From: a virus
Length of the DNA stretch: 24,087 nt
Reading direction: 5' to 3' (one strand)
Virus record (IMG/VR): IMGVR_UViG_3300042401_000693
Span: 1-24,087 of that record
Shown: positions 9,063 to 24,087 of the stretch, piece by piece
How the letters are laid out: the number at the start of each line of letters is the position of its first letter
How positions within the stretch are numbered: the first letter of the stretch is position 1
The notes under the pieces: model-generated
What the model was told of the DNA's origin: nothing
Seen by the model: the letters and a program-made list of their open reading frames with translations, nothing else
Databases searched by the model: none
Translations under genes and position numbers: made by a program

Positions 9063-9476
9063 CTAAGAAAGTGTTAATAGATATTTAGTTTTAGCTGCTT
9101 CTCCAGATAGTGCATCTGCTAAGTTACATATGTCATGAAAGCGATTAGCTTCACCATATGCTTTTAAATCAGAAGCAAACACACCTAAATCTTTTACAAC
9201 ATCCATAGAGGATGCATTAGATAGAGGATCAATCTTAAATATACCAGGACGTTTACCTAAATATCCCATAAGTTTCTCTACTACATCATCTTTAAAATCT
9301 TGTACATATTCATACAATTTTCCTAAAGCTTTATGTGTAGCATACGAAGTTGTTTGCCAATGCAATAGATGTAATTGCTCATGAAAATATGTAAGCTTTC
9401 CAGCTATAGTTTCTAATGTCAATTCTTCAGAGGATGATGCTTTCATCATCTCTTCTGGAAAGAATGATTTTGCCAT
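9063..9476 (-). CDS. Dps/ferritin-like protein (DUF5856-like)
   Basis: This 137-residue helical protein contains KLTYFHEQLHLLHWQTTSYA, then THKALGKLYEYVQDFKDDVV. The His-Trp pair followed by a second His is typical of Dps proteins. His48-x14-Asp63-x3-Glu67 keeps the exact Dps ferroxidase spacing, and His39 with Trp40 fits the other subunit's ligand with a shortened loop. I recall a phage family, DUF5856, of this kind. Dps proteins bind iron and DNA, but activity here is unproven. It could equally be a four-helix structural protein. The upstream gene's terminal codons create AGGAGG nine bases before this ATG, one of the few good ribosome-binding sites in the window. Confidence 0.65.
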   Translation of the reverse strand: MAKSFFPEEMMKASSSEELTLETIAGKLTYFHEQLHLLHWQTTSYATHKALGKLYEYVQDFKDDVVEKLMGYLGKRPGIFKIDPLSNASSMDVVKDLGVFASDLKAYGEANRFHDICNLADALSGEAAKTKYLLTLS

Positions 9477-11882: not shown

Positions 11883-12347
11883 TTATTTATAAGGAATATA
11901 TTTTGTATCACCATTCTTTTTAATGGCTTTTAAGATTTGCTTACGCTGTTTACCATTAGCCTTATAACTAACATGTACCCATGAAGGATTAGTATCATCA
12001 CCAAATTCCCAAATAAGCTGATCAAAATTTAAATTATCTTTTATGTATTTAAAGATTTCACTATTCTTAATTGCTGTTCCATCCATGTCAATATCAAAAG
12101 CTTCACCTAAACAATGTTGACTAGTTAATGATGTACCAGGAACAAGTCTATTTAACTTCTCACTTCTATATCCTGAACTTATATGTATTGGAACTTTAAA
12201 ATGTTCTCTAATTGGTTGAAAGATATTAGTTGCTAGTATTTTTAAGCTTTCTAAATGTTTTTCTGTTGGCATATTATCTATACCACTTCTTTTAGCAGAT
12301 TCACTTCTAGTCACTTCTGACAAATCTAAATTCTCTGATAGTTTCAT
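11883..12347 (-). CDS. Peptidase M15 endolysin
   Basis: This 154-residue zinc peptidase of the M15A type (D,D- or L,D-carboxypeptidase-like) is complete. It has PIHISSGYRSEKLN (53-66) and the zinc ligands in SQHCLGEAFDID (His78, Asp85) and WVHVSY (His125), with Glu114 in DQLIWEF near the catalytic position. It cuts the peptide stems of peptidoglycan during lysis. There is no signal peptide, so it needs a holin for export. It overlaps the adjacent membrane protein gene by 4 bases (12344-12347), which puts it in a standard lysis operon. The cut site within the peptide cannot be told from sequence. Confidence 0.88.
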   Translation of the reverse strand: MKLSENLDLSEVTRSESAKRSGIDNMPTEKHLESLKILATNIFQPIREHFKVPIHISSGYRSEKLNRLVPGTSLTSQHCLGEAFDIDMDGTAIKNSEIFKYIKDNLNFDQLIWEFGDDTNPSWVHVSYKANGKQRKQILKAIKKNGDTKYIPYK

Positions 12348-12553
12348 TTCTTAAATATCTTTTCAGCTGAGGTTAATCCTAAACATCCAAAAGCCAATAA
12401 GGCTACTGATTCTACTAATATTGTTGATGGTGCAGTGTGTTCTTCACTAAACGAATTATGGTACATTGTAACACATAAAGCTATTACACATAACAATCCA
12501 CATAAACGCTTCATGCTTAGACTTCCACTTTCATCACAAAAAAACTGTTTCAT
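12344..12553 (-). CDS. Small two-TM membrane protein, putative holin
   Basis: This 69-residue protein begins MKQFFCDESGSLSMKRLCGL. It has two hydrophobic segments, about residues 16-31 and 45-62, joined by a short polar loop (HNSFSEEHTAPS), and a basic end, EKIFKK. It overlaps the endolysin gene by 4 bases. Small hairpin membrane proteins in this position usually act as holins or antiholins. A second candidate holin is encoded at 13639-13977, so this one may be an antiholin or a regulator. There is no homology evidence beyond topology and position. Confidence 0.6.
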   Translation of the reverse strand: MKQFFCDESGSLSMKRLCGLLCVIALCVTMYHNSFSEEHTAPSTILVESVALLAFGCLGLTSAEKIFKK

Positions 12554-12554
12554 A

Positions 12555-12989
12555 TTATTTAATTTTAAAGTCCTTATTAATACCTATAGAGTATGATGCA
12601 AATGTATCTCCAAAAGCACTCTGAGCACCATAACTTAAAACAAATGAATATTCTTTTTTTAATGGTATTGTATAATTGAAATCATACTCCATCGTAATAT
12701 CTTTATGGTAATAAAAATATCCAATTGCTGCACTTACGCTAAACCTTTCATAAATAGGAAAGGTGGCCATAGCTTCTTGATAAAAATCCTTTCTGTCAAA
12801 TGTCCACCAACCACTATTAATTCCCACTGCTGTATTCCCAAAATACTTTCCCACTTCAATAGTTCCACCTAATAAGTTTTTAGTGTCCTGAAGCTTAGTA
12901 TCAAACGCTACATTAGGAGCAGCCATTATATAATACTGAGCCTTTGATTCTAAAGCAATAAAAAATAATAAAATAAATATTAATCTCAT
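12555..12989 (-). CDS. Exported beta-barrel-like outer membrane protein
   Basis: This 144-residue protein has a clear signal peptide: MRLIFILLFFIALESKAQ, with a likely cut after SKA. The mature part alternates aromatic and polar residues in strand-length stretches (LLGGTIEVGKYFGNTAVGIN, SVSAAIGYFYY, YSFVLSYGAQSAF, YSIGINKDFKIK), resembling a small eight-strand outer membrane barrel. It overlaps the sensor-like gene upstream by 4 bases. An outer membrane protein within a lysis block could help breach the outer membrane or alter the host surface against superinfection. The barrel is inferred from pattern only. Confidence 0.62.
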   Translation of the reverse strand: MRLIFILLFFIALESKAQYYIMAAPNVAFDTKLQDTKNLLGGTIEVGKYFGNTAVGINSGWWTFDRKDFYQEAMATFPIYERFSVSAAIGYFYYHKDITMEYDFNYTIPLKKEYSFVLSYGAQSAFGDTFASYSIGINKDFKIK

Positions 12990-13642
12990 TTCTGTTTAAC
13001 TGCCACTTTTCTTACTGCCACCTTTTTAACTGCCACTTTTCTTAGTGGTTTCTTTGGTAAAGCAGGTTTCTTAAACATATCATAAACAATAGAACCTAAC
13101 AGAGTAATAGCAAGTGCAATTGCTCCTATTATAAAACTAGAAAACTTATCAAGAAGAGAAATCATTTCTTTGGTTTCTCTTGCTCCAATTTTAGTTTGTA
13201 TATCTATTAATTCATTTACATATTTTAATACAGGATAGATTTTTGCATCCATTTCTTTAGCTTCATCATCTGTAATAATTTCATCTAAAGTAATTTTTAC
13301 AAAGAATTCATCTGCTATCTCAATATACATTTCAGCTTTTTGGCTTATTTCTTTTTCTTCTGGAGTTTGATATGTATTTAAATAAGCAGCCCACATTGTA
13401 TCTGTTATTTCTTTTTCTTTTTGAATAGAAATTAAATCAATCTTACCACCCTTTATTACTTTAATTTGATCTTGTATAGTTGATCCATAATAATCAAACT
13501 TCCTACTTAGGTAAGGTTGTGGAACTAATCTATCTTCATAAATACTTGTAGCACTTTGCTTTATAGTATGTTCTACATATTTACCAAATCCTGCAATAGC
13601 TAAAATTATAGCAGTTAATATAATGAGTAATATATTTTTCAT
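12986..13642 (-). CDS. Two-TM protein with four-helix-bundle (MCP-like) sensory domain
   Basis: This 218-residue protein has an N-terminal membrane segment (about 4-20) and a second at 168-188. The roughly 145-residue periplasmic region between them is helical. That region has YEDRLVPQPYLSR, WAAYLNTYQTPEEKEI and YPVLKYVNELIDIQTKIGAR, features of the 4HB_MCP ligand-binding bundle. No kinase or methyl-accepting domain follows. The cytoplasmic tail is instead Lys/Arg-rich with three KVAV units (200-215). Such a truncated sensor could monitor the periplasm and act on lysis timing. It overlaps both flanking genes by 4 bases. The functional link is inference. Confidence 0.65.
   Translation of the reverse strand: MKNILLIILTAIILAIAGFGKYVEHTIKQSATSIYEDRLVPQPYLSRKFDYYGSTIQDQIKVIKGGKIDLISIQKEKEITDTMWAAYLNTYQTPEEKEISQKAEMYIEIADEFFVKITLDEIITDDEAKEMDAKIYPVLKYVNELIDIQTKIGARETKEMISLLDKFSSFIIGAIALAITLLGSIVYDMFKKPALPKKPLRKVAVKKVAVRKVAVKQK
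12998..13042 (-). repeat. Three tandem 15-bp units in the sensor-like gene
   Basis: Three near-identical 15-base units encode R/K-K-V-A-V at the basic C-terminus of the two-TM protein. They look like slippage or recombination-generated copies, and the copy number could vary. Confidence 0.7.
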
Positions 13643-13977
13643 TTCCTTCTTCTTGTTGGTTTAGGTTGCTCTTTTTTTATAAAAGACATTGGGTCAGCAG
13701 CAAACTGTCCACTTAGTTTTAGCACTCCATTTATAATCTCAGGACTGTTTAACCCAACCAGTCCATAAGTAATAGCTTTATACATTGAACTAATCTCAAA
13801 TTGCTCCATCACAAACCATGCAATCAAAGATGCTATCATTGCACTTATCATCTTTTTTGTTACATCTATTCCTGATTGATTCTCACTTGTTGTAACAAGT
13901 CGAGCAACCATTCCAGCTGCACCAATGAGTAAAACTACCCACCCCCCCTCTAAAAAATTTTTTATAAAATTTTCCAA
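13639..13977 (-). CDS. LydA-like holin candidate
   Basis: This 112-residue membrane protein has hydrophobic segments at about 12-28 (GWVVLLIGAAGMVARLV), 43-59 and 67-85, followed by a basic tail, KPTRRRK. The pattern of GxxG-containing segments and the ITYGLVGLNSPEIINGVLK stretch resembles LydA/holin-family-3 proteins. It sits four bases into the next gene and near the endolysin. It would open the inner membrane so that the endolysin can leave the cytoplasm. A run of seven G (13942-13948) lies in codons 10-12. The family call is moderate. Confidence 0.68.
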   Translation of the reverse strand: MENFIKNFLEGGWVVLLIGAAGMVARLVTTSENQSGIDVTKKMISAMIASLIAWFVMEQFEISSMYKAITYGLVGLNSPEIINGVLKLSGQFAADPMSFIKKEQPKPTRRRK

Positions 13978-13995
13978 TGTTATCTTGCTTAAACT

Positions 13996-14538
13996 TTATA
14001 ATTTCAATGAATACCCTATTGAATATCCTGACATTCCATATCCAATATTAAATAAGCCTTTCTTACGTGTCTTTAAACTTATAATGAAGTTATGATTCAC
14101 TTGTGCGTAATCTGTGCTTATATCGCTTCTTATTCCTAAATACAAAGCAGCTTTAGGTTTGGCTTCTATATTATTAGTGATTGTTATCGTTTTTTCTTGT
14201 ACTTGTGCTTTAAATGATCTCCCAATGATTTTATTTTGGCTGATGGTATCTTTGATAACGTAAAGGTTATTTTCTTGCTTAATAGAGTCTGTATATTCTT
14301 TAACTTGGTTATAATCTTTAACAATATAGGCTGTATCATGTTTTTCTTTATAAATATTAGTGAAAATGGTATCTAAAACTTTAAAAGGTATGTTGTCTCC
14401 TTTAGTATATTTAGTTAAAGTTTTAGTAGTGACTATTGTATCTATTTTAGTTTTAGTGACAGTGGTTGTTGGAATTCTAAATTCAAACAAAAACAAAGAC
14501 AATAAAATTAAAATAAATATTATTCCATTCTTAATCAT
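13996..14538 (-). CDS. Envelope-spanning protein, spanin-like candidate
   Basis: This 180-residue protein has an N-terminal signal-anchor (IIFILILLSLFLFEF, about 6-20). A charged, likely elongated periplasmic region (30-125) follows, with repeated TKTKIDTIVTTKT-type segments. The C-terminal part is beta-strand-rich (ALYLGIRSDI, NFIISLKTRK, GLFNIGYGMSGYSIGYSLKL). Together these suggest a protein reaching from inner to outer membrane. In a lysis operon this fits a spanin-type fusion factor, but no lipobox is seen and the C-terminus looks like strands rather than a membrane helix. It could instead be a structural envelope protein. It overlaps the 55-aa gene upstream by 4 bases (ATGA). Confidence 0.55.
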   Translation of the reverse strand: MIKNGIIFILILLSLFLFEFRIPTTTVTKTKIDTIVTTKTLTKYTKGDNIPFKVLDTIFTNIYKEKHDTAYIVKDYNQVKEYTDSIKQENNLYVIKDTISQNKIIGRSFKAQVQEKTITITNNIEAKPKAALYLGIRSDISTDYAQVNHNFIISLKTRKKGLFNIGYGMSGYSIGYSLKL

Positions 14539-14702
14539 TTTATTTTATTAGTTGCTTTAATGTAATACCTAATGGCAAAAAATCCACTTATTATAGCTAC
14601 CAGAGAAGCTATTAAAGTTACCATTGGTTGTATATCAGCAATACTTAGCATTGCACCTGATACACTTATTGCAGTCGCAAAATCAGCGTTAGTATTTGTC
14701 AT
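14535..14702 (-). CDS. Small single-TM protein (55 aa)
   Basis: The frame runs from ATG at 14700-14702 to TGA at 14535-14537, which overlaps the ATG of the next gene. The sequence starts MTNTNADFATAISVSGAMLS and then has one hydrophobic helix (about residues 27-44, VTLIASLVAIISGFFAI) and a basic tail. It is the first gene of the leftward lysis and envelope transcript, about 50 bases from the likely start point, with a leader hairpin in between. A pinholin-like or antiholin role is possible. The protein itself has no recognised family. Confidence 0.62.
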   Translation of the reverse strand: MTNTNADFATAISVSGAMLSIADIQPMVTLIASLVAIISGFFAIRYYIKATNKIK

Positions 14703-14729
14703 CTTTTAATTTGGGGAATTTAATTTTAT

Positions 14730-14750
14730 GTGTAGAAAGGCAATCTACAC
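14730..14750 (-). promoter_or_regulatory. Leader hairpin of the leftward lysis transcript
   Basis: A perfect 7-bp inverted repeat (gtgtaga/tctacac) with a seven-base loop lies between the leftward promoter-like site and the first gene at 14702. If transcription starts near 14753, this stem-loop forms the very 5' end of the messenger and could affect its stability or translation. There is no T-run on either side, so it is not an intrinsic terminator. Confidence 0.5.
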
Positions 14751-14759
14751 TATGAGTAA

Positions 14760-14791
14760 CAAAGCTAAGTATTAGTTTTGAGAATTGCAAA
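14760..14791 (-). promoter_or_regulatory. Bacteroidetes-type promoter, leftward
   Basis: On the minus strand TTTG (14791-14788) is followed after 20 bases by TAGCTTTG (14767-14760). This fits the Bacteroidetes consensus of a -33 TTTG/TTG and a -7 TAnnTTTG. It would drive the lysis and envelope genes starting at 14702, with a leader of about 50 bases. No transcript data are available. Confidence 0.55.
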
Positions 14792-14807
14792 TGTTTTTTT
14801 ACATTTG
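14777..14807 (+). promoter_or_regulatory. Bacteroidetes-type promoter, rightward
   Basis: TTTG at 14777-14780, 19 bases, then TACATTTG at 14800-14807 matches the Bacteroidetes vegetative promoter consensus exactly. The expected start is only a few bases before the ATG at 14821, so the messenger for the large glycosyltransferase would be almost leaderless. Confidence 0.6.
14788..14807. promoter_or_regulatory. Inverted repeat shared by the divergent promoters
   Basis: The arms caaatgt (14788-14794) and acatttg (14801-14807) flank six T. The left arm contains the -33 of the leftward promoter and the right arm contains the -7 of the rightward promoter. A protein bound here would touch both promoters, so it is a candidate operator. 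Confidence 0.5.
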
Positions 14808-14820
14808 ATGAATAAAACCA

Positions 14821-17800
14821 ATGATTATGCCTTACAGTTTTACGTATTTCAAACCAGAAGTTAAAGAATGGTTTATTTCTAATGTACCCATCTCATACAG
14901 AGTGTTAGATGTAGGCCCTGGAATAGGTACATACTCAGATATTTTACGTTCATCAGGATATAAATTAGATGCTATTGAAATCTTTGAGCCTTATATTGAG
15001 AAATACAATCTTAAAGAAAAATATGACAATGTTTATATTGGTGATATTACATTATTCAATATTGATGATTATGATTTTATTATACTTGGAGATGTATTAG
15101 AACATCTAAAGGTGGATGATGCTGTAAACTTGATCAATTCAATTATTAATAGTGGTAAGGAATGTTTAGTAGCTGTACCATATAAAATGGAACAAGGAGA
15201 ACATGAGGGTAATATATACGAAACTCATCATCAACCAGATCTAACAATAGATGTGATGAAAGAGAGATATAGTAAATTAGAATGTATATATAACAATGAA
15301 TATTATGGATATTATACGTATATAAATATAAAATTTGAAAAAGCATATGTATTATATGCAAATGCATCTTATTTTGACACAGTGCTATCTTGTGTAAAAT
15401 CTATAAAGACATTTAGTGATGTTCCTGTTATAGTATATATGCTTAATTCTAAGCTAAAGATTGATGGAGCTCTTACAATAAATTGGGAATGTGACGTAGA
15501 TATCATTCATAAACAGAAATATATAGATAGAAAGGATGATAAAGTGTACAAACTGTTGATACAACGTCCACTTATTGTTAAAGATGCTCTAATGAACTAT
15601 GCCAAATCTGTTGCTTATATAGATGCAGATAGTGTAGCTACAAAATATGTAGACAATATATTTACAATGTTTGATAATAAATCTGTTCATCCATATTTTG
15701 TAGAAGGTATGTATGAATATTTATTAATTAATGGTAAAGGAGGAGCAGCTAGTAGAAAAGATCTATCTACAACACTAGAACATCCAGCATGTGAGTTATT
15801 TAATGTTAACCAATATGTAAGACAGAAATATAGACAAACTGGTTATTTTGTATCTGGACAGAATTGTATAGAGTTTTTAGATGAGTGGTATAACATGTGC
15901 ATTCATCCAGAAGTGTTAGCCCACCATACGCATTATGCTCCCTATCATGAAGAAACTATTGTTAATGTTTTATTGTGGAAGAAGAACATACATACAGGTC
16001 TTCCTTACATATATATGAATGGATCATATGATACTATTAATGAAGTGTATGACACTATTGGGTTTAATGGTAAAGATAATACTGTTAGAGAATGGGTGAA
16101 GATTCCTAAGACTAAATCAAATTTATTATTCTTTCATGGAGAAAAAGATTCTGTAATAATGAATAAAATGATAGCTAAACTAAATAGTAAATTAAAAATA
16201 TTGTTTTTAGCACCCCATTTATCTACAGGAGGAATGCCAGCATTCTTATTAAAAAGAATAGAGGCTTTGAAAAGCAATAATGATGTAGAAATATTTGTTG
16301 TAGAGTATCAATGCTATAGTATTGATTATGTTGTACAAAGAAATCAAATAATGAACATTGTTAATCCAAACTTTCGTACACTATGGGAGAATAAAATGGA
16401 ACTGTTTGATGTTATAAATGATTGGAAACCTGATGTTATTCATATAGATGAAATGTCTGAGAGATTAGATAGGGAAATGATCGTATCATTATACAATCAT
16501 AACAGATCATATCGTATCATTGAAACTTGTCATGATGTATCATTCACTCCAAATGATAAAATGTTTCATCCAGATGCATATGCTTTCTGTACACCTCATC
16601 ACTTAAAGACATTCAATAACACCATTTCTTATAAACAAGTGATTGAGTTTCCAATAGAGGATTTGAAGAATAAAAAATGTATATGGGATGAAGCTATGAT
16701 GGATCTAGATTTTGATTTCTCAAAAGAACATGTTGTAAATGTTGGACTATGGACTTCAGGAAAGAATCAAAAAGAAGCTGTTGAACTAGCAAGACAAATG
16801 CCTGATGTACAGTTTCATTTTATAGGAAACATGGCTCCTAACTTTAGAGACTATTGGCATCCAATAATATTAGATCTTCCAGATAATTGTAAAATATGGG
16901 GAGAACGTGATGATGTTTATAAATTCTTAATGGCCTCAGATGTATTTATGTTTAATAGCACTTGGGAATGTAATCCTTTAGTTATTAGAGAAGCTATTGG
17001 TCATGAGTGTAAAATATTAGCTAGAGATTTGCCACAATATTGTGGAATGTTTGATGGATACATTACACCAATAGGTGATAATTTAAAAGAACAATTAGAA
17101 CAAGCATTAGAAGAACCTGTTACATACACTATTCCTACTAATCAGTTTATTAATTTTAGAGACAATCATATTGCTTTATATAAACAAGTGGTTAGTAGTG
17201 CTACCCAGATGAGTAATGTAAGTATTAATCAACATTTTGTCAACAATCCATTTCTTGAAATAAAAGGAACTTCTGATAGTGTATTTAAAATATGTTTTTA
17301 TGATGAACATAATATTTTACAATATGAAAATACTATAAAAGCTAATCATTGGGTGAAGCTCAATAGACAATGGTATACTAAATGGTCAACTAAAGTGTGG
17401 GAGAACAATGAGGTGATATATAATAATGTATTAAGTCTAGAAAACAAAAGAGTTTATATTGCTTTTGATAGCTCTTCTCTTGGAGATACTATAGCCTGGA
17501 TACCTTATTGTTTAGAGTTTAAGAATAAACATAATTGCGATGTTATTGTAAGTACATTCCATAACTATTTGTTTGAGAGTGTGTATCCAGAACTTGAGTT
17601 TATAAAGCCAGGACTGCCTGTTAATAACATCTATGCTCAATACACTCTTGGATGGTTTTATAATCTAGATAAAGAACCAGCTTTACCAAATACAATACCA
17701 CTACAACAAACAGCTACAAACATCTTAGGACTAGACTATAAAGAAATCAAGCCTCGTATTGCTGTAAAGACTCATGAGAAGCCAGTGGAGAAATACGTAA

Positions 17801-18276
17801 CTATAGCTACCAATTCTACAGCAGGATGTAAGTTCTGGACTAAAGAAGGATGGCAAGAAGTGATTAATTTTCTAGTTGATAAGGGATATAAAGTGATTAA
17901 TGTTTCCAAGGAAAAGAATCCTTTTGATAACTGTACACAACTAGAAGACTATTCTATGGATAATACTATAAACACTATATATTATAGTGAGTTCTTTATA
18001 GGATTATCTAGTGGTTTAAGTTGGATGGCTTGGGGAATGGGTAAACAAGTGGTGATGATCTCAAACTTCACAGAAGAAGATCATGAGTTTAAATGTATCA
18101 GGATAACAAATGATACATTGTGTCATGGATGTTGGAACAGTGCTGATTATAAATTTGATCGTGGGGATTGGGACTGGTGCCCTAGACACAAAAATACCCC
18201 TAGACATTTTGAATGTCATAGGGGTATATCTGCAAAACAAGTGATTGATAGTTTAGTCTTTCTGAAACACTTGTAA
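14821..18276 (+). CDS. Four-domain glycosylation enzyme: methyltransferase, GT-A, GT4, TibC-like heptosyltransferase
   Basis: This 1151-residue fusion has four domains. Residues 25-125 are a SAM methyltransferase (VLDVGPGIGTY, DVLEHL). Residues 175-430 are a GT-A domain with AYIDADS (DxD at 268-270). Residues 458-790 are a GT4-type GT-B domain (LAPHLSTGGMPAFL, and an EX7E motif at Glu716/Glu724). From about 805 there is a beta-rich segment and then a GT9-like domain (SSLGDTIAWIPY, FIGLSSGLSWMAW). That last domain ends with four cysteines (C1101, C1104, C1120, C1132), the metal-site pattern of bacterial autotransporter O-heptosyltransferases such as TibC and AAH. Those enzymes glycosylate Ser/Thr on surface proteins. 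The gene is monocistronic and faces away from the lysis genes. Acceptors are unknown; the phage's Thr/Ser-rich virion proteins are candidates. A second ATG at 14827 is possible. Confidence 0.85.
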   Translation: MIMPYSFTYFKPEVKEWFISNVPISYRVLDVGPGIGTYSDILRSSGYKLDAIEIFEPYIEKYNLKEKYDNVYIGDITLFNIDDYDFIILGDVLEHLKVDDAVNLINSIINSGKECLVAVPYKMEQGEHEGNIYETHHQPDLTIDVMKERYSKLECIYNNEYYGYYTYINIKFEKAYVLYANASYFDTVLSCVKSIKTFSDVPVIVYMLNSKLKIDGALTINWECDVDIIHKQKYIDRKDDKVYKLLIQRPLIVKDALMNYAKSVAYIDADSVATKYVDNIFTMFDNKSVHPYFVEGMYEYLLINGKGGAASRKDLSTTLEHPACELFNVNQYVRQKYRQTGYFVSGQNCIEFLDEWYNMCIHPEVLAHHTHYAPYHEETIVNVLLWKKNIHTGLPYIYMNGSYDTINEVYDTIGFNGKDNTVREWVKIPKTKSNLLFFHGEKDSVIMNKMIAKLNSKLKILFLAPHLSTGGMPAFLLKRIEALKSNNDVEIFVVEYQCYSIDYVVQRNQIMNIVNPNFRTLWENKMELFDVINDWKPDVIHIDEMSERLDREMIVSLYNHNRSYRIIETCHDVSFTPNDKMFHPDAYAFCTPHHLKTFNNTISYKQVIEFPIEDLKNKKCIWDEAMMDLDFDFSKEHVVNVGLWTSGKNQKEAVELARQMPDVQFHFIGNMAPNFRDYWHPIILDLPDNCKIWGERDDVYKFLMASDVFMFNSTWECNPLVIREAIGHECKILARDLPQYCGMFDGYITPIGDNLKEQLEQALEEPVTYTIPTNQFINFRDNHIALYKQVVSSATQMSNVSINQHFVNNPFLEIKGTSDSVFKICFYDEHNILQYENTIKANHWVKLNRQWYTKWSTKVWENNEVIYNNVLSLENKRVYIAFDSSSLGDTIAWIPYCLEFKNKHNCDVIVSTFHNYLFESVYPELEFIKPGLPVNNIYAQYTLGWFYNLDKEPALPNTIPLQQTATNILGLDYKEIKPRIAVKTHEKPVEKYVTIATNSTAGCKFWTKEGWQEVINFLVDKGYKVINVSKEKNPFDNCTQLEDYSMDNTINTIYYSEFFIGLSSGLSWMAWGMGKQVVMISNFTEEDHEFKCIRITNDTLCHGCWNSADYKFDRGDWDWCPRHKNTPRHFECHRGISAKQVIDSLVFLKHL
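18189..18227 (-). terminator. Intrinsic terminator of the tail-fibre transcript, inside the convergent gene
   Basis: On the minus strand a stem of about 15 base pairs (nine plus six, one bulged base at 18218, loop of three at 18209-18211) is followed by TTTTT at 18194-18190. It lies about 26 bases past the stop of the 18253-18522 gene. On the plus strand there is no T-run, so it should work in the minus direction only. The same bases encode the last cysteines of the large glycosyltransferase. Confidence 0.75.
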
Positions 18277-18522
18277 CATTTGTCCTTTAGCTAATATAGT
18301 GAGAGATTCATTTTCTTTAATAAAGGTTTTAAGAAGCTGTTGATCAGACGTATCTAGATCAATAGTTTCTCCTTTATTTAAATTCAATGCCATTTCCCAA
18401 AACTTCATAGCATCTCCTTTTGGTTGTTGTACTAAAGATGCTGCTAATAATTTTCCTGTATTAGCATTCTCAATCTCTTGACCATCTAGATCAACAAGAT
18501 TAAAATTAAAATTTAATTTCAT
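18253..18522 (-). CDS. Small soluble phage protein, unknown
   Basis: This 89-residue protein begins MKLNFNFNLVDLDGQEIENA. It continues with a helical middle (GKLLAASLVQQPKGDAMKFW) and an end, SLTILAKGQMLQVFQKD. The composition is balanced, with no Cys or membrane segment. It has its own promoter-like site at 18549-18579 and is the last gene before the strong terminator. Its 3' end overlaps the convergent glycosyltransferase gene by 24 bases. Function is unknown; a tail-assembly helper is possible from its place beside fibre genes, but nothing in the sequence proves it. Confidence 0.65.
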   Translation of the reverse strand: MKLNFNFNLVDLDGQEIENANTGKLLAASLVQQPKGDAMKFWEMALNLNKGETIDLDTSDQQLLKTFIKENESLTILAKGQMLQVFQKD

Positions 18523-21276: not shown

Positions 21277-24087
21277 TTATTTAATTAATAGTTTTAGTTC
21301 TTCTATTTCTAATGAAAGTTCTTGTACTGCTTTTACTAATACAGGTATTAAATCTTGATAATTTAAAGCTAAACTTTCTTCTTCACTTTCATTTTTAATT
21401 TTAAATACTGCTTCAGGATATACTTTTTCTATGTCTTGTGCAATTAAAAATAATCTTCTTTTATCTTCATCATCAGTTTTGTATTTACCAATAATTGTCC
21501 TAATTTGAGATAAATTATCACAAGCATTTACTATTGGCTCAATTATATCTTTTGAATTTTCATCAGATAATGAACCCCATGAAGTACCTCCATTTGATAA
21601 AACAACTCCATTCGTATTACTTATAATTCTTATTTCAGCACCACCTCCTCCATTTGCAGTAATATAATTTGCAGAATTTCTGCTAAAAAATATTTCAGCT
21701 CCCGAACTTCCAAGAGTTAAATCTGCAAGTGAACCTTTTACTATAACATCACCACCTGATGTGATACGCATACGTTCGGTAGCACTTGTAGTAAAAATCA
21801 ATGGTCCATAACTACCACTCCAATAACTTGCTGCTAAAGTAACTCCATTACTTCCCGTTGCATTAGGAAAAATATCTAAAGTAGCTCCTGAAACTCCCCA
21901 ACCATTACCAACTGAAAAACTACCATTTACTACAAGTTTTGAAGATAAATTACTTGTTGTTCCTATACCTACGTTACCATCCCTTGATATTGCTAATCTT
22001 ACATTTCCTGAATTAGCATCACCACCTGCAGCCGTAGAACATTTAATTGCAAAGTCACCTTCAACTTGGTCTTCAGTAAAAAACCCCCAATTTCTTCTAA
22101 GCGTTGGATTTGTAGTTAATGTAGTATTTAAGGATATTCCTGCTCCTGAACTATTACCACCATTTGCAATAAATTGAGATTTTGCACCTGTCGCAGTAAC
22201 CGATGAACTAAACGTAGCTGCTCCTGTGGATGCTATGGTAAGTCTTGTAGTTGGTGCAGTATCGGTTGTAACATCTCTTGTACCAAATATTAGACTTCCT
22301 TTAGTTTCACCTGTATTTGATGTTTCAATATATCCAATATAGGCAGGTTGATTTGTATTTGCAGTAATTGAATAACCAAAACCAATTAATCTTGTACCAT
22401 TAAGACCATTCTCACCTGCGCCTAATTGTATATAATTACTTGCAGTACCAAAACCAGTTGTTTGTGGATTTTTACTAAATGTAGATAAAGCAAGTACGGA
22501 ATTTGTTGAATTTCCAACATTTAAAGCAGTTGTTGCTGAATTAATATTCAATTTAAACCCTGCATCTGTTGTAGTGTTTATTAATACGTTACCACCTGAT
22601 TGACTTTGTAAAATTAATTTAGTAGCATCTATATATCCATCTGCAAAACCATTTGAATCATTATAAAATACAACAGGTGCGCCTGATAATGAATTTGAAT
22701 TAGCAACCCCAACACGTTTATTTGTAGCTGCTCTCACGTCTAAAGAATAACCACTAACTGCTGATGTTGTGTTAAATGCACCATTCCCACTAAACGTAGC
22801 ACTTGTACCACTTAATGCTCCTGTAAGCGTCTTAGCTCCTGCAAAGGTTTGCGTTCCTGTAGTAACCACACCTCCAAAACTTGCATCAGCAGGTTGTAGA
22901 TTTAAAAGACTTCCAACAAGACTTGCTGCATTTGCGTTTGGAGTTATGCCTATTGCAGTTAATGATATAGATAACCCTGAAGTACCAGAGGTACCTGTAG
23001 TACCAGAAGTTCCATCAATTCCTGTAGTACCACTTGTACCTGTTGTACCACTAGATCCACTAGTTCCTGTTGTACCACTTGTACCTGTGGTTCCTGATGT
23101 TCCATCAATTCCTGATGTACCACTTGTTCCTGTAGTTCCACTGGTACCAGATGTACCTGTAGTGCCACTAGTTCCTGTTACACCTGTTACATATGCCACT
23201 ACATCCACTATATCACCCAATAAACAAGGAGTGGCTAATGTTATACTTGTACCAGTGGTTGCTGTAAATTCTGAAGGAGCAAGTTTAGAACCATTATAAT
23301 AAACATCTACTTGTCCTACATTATATGTTACAGTGAATACTGTTTGTCCTGCTGTTGCTGTAAATGTGGTTTCATTTCTTGCATTAGGATCAGGAGTGAG
23401 TCCACTAGTTCCACTAGTTCCACTGCTTCCTGTAGATCCACTAGATCCAGTTCCTCCACTACTTCCACTAGAACCTGATGTTCCATCTATTCCAGAAGTT
23501 CCACTGGTACCTGTGGTTCCTGATGTTCCATCAATTCCTGTAGTACCACTTGTACCTGTTGTACCACTAGATCCACTTGTGCCAGAAGATCCACTTGTAC
23601 CATCTATTCCAGACGTGCCTGAAGAACCACTTGTGCCTGAAGTACCAGATGTTCCACTAGTTCCATCTATTCCAGTGGTGCCTGAAGTTCCACTAGTTCC
23701 AGAAGATCCTGTTGTACCAGAGGTGCCAGATGTACCATCTATTCCAGAAGATCCACTTGTTCCTGTAGTGCCAGAGGTACCTGATGTACCTGATGTACCT
23801 GTAGTACCAGATGTTCCAGTGGTACCAGATGTACCATTTGTACCATCTCCACCAGAAGCACCATCAAGATTTACATACCATATAGGGAAACTTCCTGATC
23901 CAACAGTTCTTGTAGGAGCACCAAATATTAATATTCCTGTTAAAGGATCATAAGATATCACTTCACATTCTTGGAAGTTATTAGCATCTCCTGCTATAAT
24001 TATAGATTGTGCTACTGAGTAAGACAAATCTAAATCCACTGTTAATGTTCCTGCGTTACCTAAAACAAAACTTGTTACAGAAGTGGT
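21277..24087 (-). CDS. Large tail fibre with Gly-Thr-Ser triplet repeats and S74 chaperone (5' partial)
   Basis: The frame is open through the window edge, so the first residues seen (TTSVTSFVLGNAGTLTVDLD) continue from outside; 936 codons are visible. A short N-terminal domain is followed by about 150 residues of Gly-X-Y triplets (GTS, GTT, GSS, GID). Next come a roughly 70-residue beta domain (FTATAGQTVFTVTYNVGQVD), about 70 more triplet residues and a long beta-shaft. The end is an S74 chaperone whose SDENSK gives the Ser/Lys pair about 96 residues from the C-terminus, then LFLIAQDIEKVYPEAV and a coiled tail. The triplets contain no proline and would present over 100 Thr/Ser hydroxyls, again plausible glycan acceptors. 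Confidence 0.9.
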   Translation of the reverse strand, partial: TTSVTSFVLGNAGTLTVDLDLSYSVAQSIIIAGDANNFQECEVISYDPLTGILIFGAPTRTVGSGSFPIWYVNLDGASGGDGTNGTSGTTGTSGTTGTSGTSGTSGTTGTSGSSGIDGTSGTSGTTGSSGTSGTSGTTGIDGTSGTSGTSGTSGSSGTSGIDGTSGSSGTSGSSGTTGTSGTTGIDGTSGTTGTSGTSGIDGTSGSSGSSGGTGSSGSTGSSGTSGTSGLTPDPNARNETTFTATAGQTVFTVTYNVGQVDVYYNGSKLAPSEFTATTGTSITLATPCLLGDIVDVVAYVTGVTGTSGTTGTSGTSGTTGTSGTSGIDGTSGTTGTSGTTGTSGSSGTTGTSGTTGIDGTSGTTGTSGTSGLSISLTAIGITPNANAASLVGSLLNLQPADASFGGVVTTGTQTFAGAKTLTGALSGTSATFSGNGAFNTTSAVSGYSLDVRAATNKRVGVANSNSLSGAPVVFYNDSNGFADGYIDATKLILQSQSGGNVLINTTTDAGFKLNINSATTALNVGNSTNSVLALSTFSKNPQTTGFGTASNYIQLGAGENGLNGTRLIGFGYSITANTNQPAYIGYIETSNTGETKGSLIFGTRDVTTDTAPTTRLTIASTGAATFSSSVTATGAKSQFIANGGNSSGAGISLNTTLTTNPTLRRNWGFFTEDQVEGDFAIKCSTAAGGDANSGNVRLAISRDGNVGIGTTSNLSSKLVVNGSFSVGNGWGVSGATLDIFPNATGSNGVTLAASYWSGSYGPLIFTTSATERMRITSGGDVIVKGSLADLTLGSSGAEIFFSRNSANYITANGGGGAEIRIISNTNGVVLSNGGTSWGSLSDENSKDIIEPIVNACDNLSQIRTIIGKYKTDDEDKRRLFLIAQDIEKVYPEAVFKIKNESEEESLALNYQDLIPVLVKAVQELSLEIEELKLLIK
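22820..22873 (-). repeat. 54-bp block shared by the two fibre genes (copy 2)
   Basis: Second copy of the block at 20354-20407. Identical protein with diverged third codon positions implies an old duplication kept by selection, or module exchange. Confidence 0.8.
22975..23184 (-). repeat. Gly-Thr-Ser triplet repeat, second block
   Basis: About 70 residues of collagen-type GTS/GTT/GSS triplets, interrupted by GID at intervals, in the partial fibre gene. The DNA period is 9 bases with many degenerate 18-base copies, so it is prone to recombination. Confidence 0.85.
23401..23862 (-). repeat. Gly-Thr-Ser triplet repeat, first block
   Basis: About 154 residues of the same triplet type with GID interruptions at irregular spacing. 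There is no spacer structure, so this is a protein repeat and not a CRISPR array. Copy number probably varies between strains. Confidence 0.85.

Follow-up and report, generated by a model that had tools for sequence, protein, structure and literature searches.

The pR/pRM pair of phage lambda is an operator-controlled divergent phage switch, and the pR'-tR' late leader of lambda precedes its lysis genes. Promoters of Bacteroidota usually have a spacer of 19-21 nucleotides between their two boxes. Bidirectional promoters have so far been studied mainly in cases where the starts flank a shared -10 element. The E. coli promoters described by Warman, Grainger and colleagues comprise pseudo-symmetric DNA that yields divergent mRNAs, with opposed polymerases excluding each other; they share a -10 element, and their starts lie mostly 10-23 bp apart (commonly 10, 18 or 23) (PMC12825309). 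In E. coli, competition makes a difference once one direction is strongly activated; at the basal level it was too weak to matter at five tested promoters (PMC12825309). The published Bacteroidota sigma-ABfr-type consensus combines TTTG at -33 with TAnnTTTG at -7 (PMC7366714).

Here we describe a phage locus that would resemble the E. coli type in its pseudo-symmetric DNA, mutually exclusive polymerases and divergent mRNAs, but in which the -33/spacer region is shared. No -10 element is shared, the -7 boxes at 14760-14767 and 14800-14807 being separate. Compared with the sigma-ABfr-type promoter, the boxes match, and the difference is that two promoters are interleaved on opposite strands. We consider it fairly probable (about 0.6) that the 48 bp at 14760-14807 form a bidirectional promoter read by the host's housekeeping sigma factor, of Bacteroidota type, with the two directions coupled by polymerase competition.

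Genomic context of the divergent junction

The window is the entire stretch analyzed, 24,087 bases of AT-rich phage DNA (IMG/VR record IMGVR_UViG_3300042401_000693, positions 1-24,087). It contains a single divergent gene junction, a 118-bp gap at 14703-14820. A leftward gene series runs from 14702 to about 2027 and opens with a lysis cassette, while a large gene departs rightward. Gene functions were assigned from family matches, except that the role of the first leftward ORF is putative. The flanking genes are as follows.

14535-14702, minus strand: first leftward gene, a small membrane (holin-like) protein of 55 aa
11883-14538, minus strand: remainder of the lysis cassette, with ORFs of 180, 112, 218, 144 and 69 aa and the M15 endolysin
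11883-12347, minus strand: M15 endolysin, 154 aa (phrog_894, 8e-35; Pfam Peptidase_M15_3, 8e-18)
14821-18276, plus strand: methyltransferase and glycosyltransferase (GT) gene, 1151 aa (Pfam Methyltransf_23, Glyco_trans_1_4)

Homologues of the 55-aa protein occupy the same location in L001-L016, with 87-100% identity. The GT gene probably starts at the second ATG (14827) rather than at the annotated ATG (14821), because its relatives open with MPxS at the second ATG. At the DNA level, positions 12000-18300 of the window matched nothing in an annotated phage collection, and an Rfam search of the window locus and eight relatives returned nothing meaningful, with one sub-threshold chance match at the locus.

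Elsewhere in the window, positions 9063-9476 (minus strand) encode a protein of the Dps-like/starvation-inducible family (phrog_858, 4e-14), and 21277-24039 (minus strand) encode a protein of 920 aa that contains long collagen-like GTSGTSG repeats. Its neighbour, a 729-aa protein, has a minor-head/chaperone-like match at the C terminus.

Two interleaved predicted promoters facing outward

The gap holds two promoter-like sites, which correspond exactly, box by box, to those proposed by the sequence-only reading.

14777-14807, plus strand: rightward promoter, TTTG-N19-TACATTTG, with the -33 box TTTG at 14777-14780 and the -7 box at 14800-14807
14760-14791, minus strand: leftward promoter, TTTG-N20-TAGCTTTG, with the -33 box at 14788-14791 (CAAA on the plus strand) and the -7 box at 14760-14767 (CAAAGCTA on the plus strand)
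14777-14791, unstranded: core TTTG-N7-CAAA, with the -33 boxes back to back across a 7-nt gap (14781-14787), 11 bp centre to centre

Both sites match the Bacteroidota housekeeping-sigma pattern (TTTG near -33, TAnnTTTG near -7, spacer 19-21) with zero mismatches. They overlap physically, each -33 box sitting within the spacer of the opposite promoter. From the box positions, starts are predicted at about 14811-14813 rightward and about 14754-14756 leftward, about 55-59 bp apart. The distances from -7 box to gene start (14-20 nt on the right, 57 nt on the left) are compatible with these predicted starts.

Across the whole 24-kb window, TTTG-N17-23-TAnnTTTG matches only twice on both strands, and both matches fall in the divergent gap. 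The count by itself is meaningless, since 1.93 matches are expected by chance in the shuffled window. Another explanation would be that only one site is functional and its counterpart arose by chance in AT-rich sequence, and lone matches are indeed near chance level in these phage genomes: a 117-kb relative yields 11 single-motif matches against 7 in its reversed control, and in the longer records of four relatives the reversed control yields about half as many matches or more. The arrangement argues otherwise, as dinucleotide shuffling of the gap yields one site per direction in only 0.025% of cases. Both sets of boxes are also kept in relatives whose leaders cannot be aligned (L018, for example), and we consider a single functional site very unlikely.

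Conservation of the promoter pair in related phages

The comparison set consisted of the fetched relatives of the glycosyltransferase and the relatives of a lysis gene. Upstream of the GT start, 14 of the 19 distinct sequences carry the overlapping pair, and the 7-nt gap is constant in every one of these pairs. Leftward and rightward promoters are both kept in L007, L013, L018, L023 and others; between the window and L018, the boxes are preserved and the leader is not alignable. The left-side lysis genes of L013, L018, L101, L105 and L134 include other families and enzymes (M15, GH19, Amidase_3). Because the boxes are kept while the flanking lysis genes differ, the layout outlasts a change of neighbours.

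As judged from sequence, the junction contains two complete outward-facing promoters with -33 boxes 7 nt apart, kept in relatives. This bears out the earlier proposal that promoters of Bacteroidetes type diverge and overlap where the lysis transcript and the large glycosyltransferase gene part, here the M15 cassette and the 1151-aa GT gene.

The overlap is not universal. Four GT relatives (L012, L041, L059, L083) lack the overlapping pair. Upstream of a coiled-coil holin-like gene, 63 distinct regions were compared: the overlapping pair occurs in 8, each of which has a divergent gene; a further 26 have a divergent gene but no such pair. With only 8/34 overlapping and four GT relatives lacking the pair, overlap is not needed to pair lysis and GT genes. 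It is one lineage's solution, since other clades have non-overlapping promoters here.

A model of polymerase competition

A holoenzyme bound in one direction would cover the -33 box and spacer of the opposing promoter, so that both directions would not be occupied together. The leftward lysis cassette and the rightward methyltransferase/glycosyltransferase gene would thereby be coupled through polymerase competition, and strengthening either direction would lower the other. Mutually exclusive use is likely because the promoters are kept with a fixed geometry in relatives. Several observations count against this model: basal competition was too weak to matter at the five E. coli promoters, single motifs occur near chance level, only 8 of the 34 holin-gene regions with a divergent gene overlap in this way, four GT relatives do without the overlap, and host genomes have no general preference for a 7-nt gap.

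Such a mechanism would make a dedicated repressor at the inverted repeat unnecessary. The sequence-only reading had noted that the two promoters share this repeat and had suggested that one regulator could switch between the lysis transcript and the large glycosyltransferase.

14788-14807, unstranded: 7-bp inverted repeat CAAATGT-N6-ACATTTG, arms at 14788-14794 and 14801-14807, judged incidental

The repeat exists as described, its arms covering the leftward -33 box and most of the rightward -7 box, and a regulator bound there might toggle the two promoters like the operator of a divergent phage switch. Geometrically, one protein could affect both promoters, and operator-like cores TTTGGTAGTTTCAAA recur in some relatives. 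However, the repeat is not significant, because 35% of gap shuffles contain a perfect inverted repeat of 7 bp with a loop of 3-25 nt. Of its seven base pairs, four are nothing but the promoter boxes facing each other, CAAA of the leftward -33 and TTTG of the rightward -7. The comparison shows that the promoter consensus can produce, as a by-product, an inverted repeat spanning facing promoters.

Comparative evidence points the same way. The repeat reaches at least 3 bp past the boxes at 7% of comparable phage sites (88 distinct), and across these sites the 7-bp core is no more dyad-symmetric than chance would give. In L023 the repeat shrinks to the 4-bp boxes only, and in L007 one pair has turned into A/C. 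The core itself varies: AGAATTG in the window, ATAATAA in L007 and AAACTAC in distant relatives. The sequence-only reading had named a repeat not kept in related phages as one thing that would refute it; this outcome is seen for the repeat but not for the promoters, which are conserved. Given the absence of core dyad symmetry, the 7% extension and the reduced repeats of L023 and L007, the idea of a common regulator binding the repeat is unsupported, and we regard it as improbable. Like lambda pR/pRM, the window has divergent back-to-back promoters, but it differs in having no conserved operator, and inspection short of a systematic search identified no adjoining repressor gene.

Recurrence of the 7-nt geometry in phages and bacteria

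When IMG/VR was scanned for the complete layout, 115 stretches matched at a 7-nt gap, against 12 at 4 nt and 12 at 10 nt; these control patterns had identical spacers and as many fixed bases. The 115 stretches include near-copies and reduce to 86 distinct site sequences, about 20 of which lie at the lysis/GT pair. Other distinct sites belong to unrelated divergent gene pairs, one of them beside a terminase-like protein. In L168, a divergent IS200/IS605-like tnpA/tnpB pair, identified from sequence without a family search, has the same back-to-back layout at 2714-2761.

At loci not chosen for the motif, an opposite -7 box accompanies 10 of the 11 promoters that carry CAAA at offset 7. The possibility that CAAA at this offset is a general trait of single promoters was rejected, since the opposite -7 box is almost always present in these unselected loci.

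The fixed gap could also reflect a phage or host regulator that binds the TTTG-N7-CAAA core, with half-sites one helical turn apart, and silences both promoters early in infection. Constancy of the gap at 7 nt would fit this, as would two further observations: in noncoding phage DNA, TTTGGTAGTTTCAAA mostly comes with a one-sided -7 box, suggesting recognition beyond sigma there, and many TTTGCATATATGCAAA palindromes separate promoters in a Paludibacteraceae genome. Conversely, symmetry is no higher than under random half-site pairing, the window core is unlike the recurrent cores, and no regulator gene was identified, the search being non-systematic. We consider this explanation unlikely for the window. 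From the recurrence of TTTGGTAGTTTCAAA with a one-sided -7 box, some phages may nevertheless have a regulator of that core, from which the window core differs. In phage noncoding DNA generally, TTTGGTAGTTTCAAA (L341-L452) usually constitutes the -33 box and spacer of a single Bacteroidota promoter.

In a scan of bacterial genomes, 79 of 80 among the matches listed bear Bacteroidota names, as expected from the Bacteroidota promoter type. No general preference for a 7-nt gap was found in hosts, in about 150 Flavobacteriaceae genomes and 158 genomes from the phylum. In certain Paludibacteraceae relatives (G004, G173, G202), each genome contains 11-15 promoter pairs arranged back to back across a 7-nt gap; G004 has 14 further pairs at 8-nt gaps, and the palindrome TTTGCATATATGCAAA lies in many of the Paludibacteraceae pairs. 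These look like a genome-wide regulon or a clade-specific bidirectional promoter.

Searches of the open-access literature found no papers on such an overlapping layout in Bacteroidota, which does not in itself prove novelty. Sharing of the -33 region, as a layout that recurs in phages of Bacteroidota, would represent a second way of building bidirectional promoters.

Leader hairpins and terminators upstream of the lysis genes

The predicted 57-nt leftward leader of the window contains one hairpin.

14730-14750, minus strand: hairpin GTGTAGA-TTGCCTT-TCTACAC, with which the predicted lysis leader begins (-9.0 kcal/mol, z -4.7)

Its stem is a perfect 7 bp, a better inverted repeat than the one at 14788-14807. 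L009 loses one pair of this hairpin, and distant relatives have different hairpins in the same place. The leaders of relatives align only loosely with MAFFT.

The window hairpin is not followed by a U-run, so the leader has no terminator. By comparison, L091, L094, L101, L104, L127, L185 and L023 have, downstream of the promoter and ahead of the first lysis gene, a strong hairpin with a U-run, by its form an intrinsic terminator; weaker candidates occur in L018, L105, L118, L134 and L177. A terminator ahead of the lysis genes would thus be a trait of many overlapping relatives and not of the window. Several relatives resemble lambda pR'-tR' in this respect, since such a terminator separates their lysis promoter from the first lysis gene. 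The window differs from lambda in having no terminator, and no antiterminator is known here. In the relatives, the leftward RNA would be further controlled by the leader terminator, and the analogy suggests lysis attenuation in terminator-bearing phages. The seven terminator-bearing leaders could possibly act as an attenuator or yield a short RNA.

Taken at its broadest, the layout may define a class of bidirectional promoter, specific to Bacteroidota, that has a common -33 region with a fixed 7-nt gap (one helical turn) and couples lysis to a sugar-transferase gene in a large phage group. In most overlapping relatives it would feed a short structured RNA ended by a terminator before the lysis genes, amounting to lambda-like lysis attenuation on a competing promoter pair. 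We put this forward as a speculative proposal, rather unlikely to hold in full. The layout yields a testable model of how uncultured phages might tie lysis timing to another function.

A separate element, ATGCTATATTATG/C, is absent from the window, where the best match has 3 mismatches. It occurs in 1-4 copies (at most 1 mismatch) in the records of ten relatives, 95-119 kb in length. Carriers include L471, L493, L503, L021, L101 and others, as well as L557-L564. Lysis leaders contain it, it also lies about 105 nt ahead of a gene whose product starts MADNL, and it is possibly a phage-specific control element.
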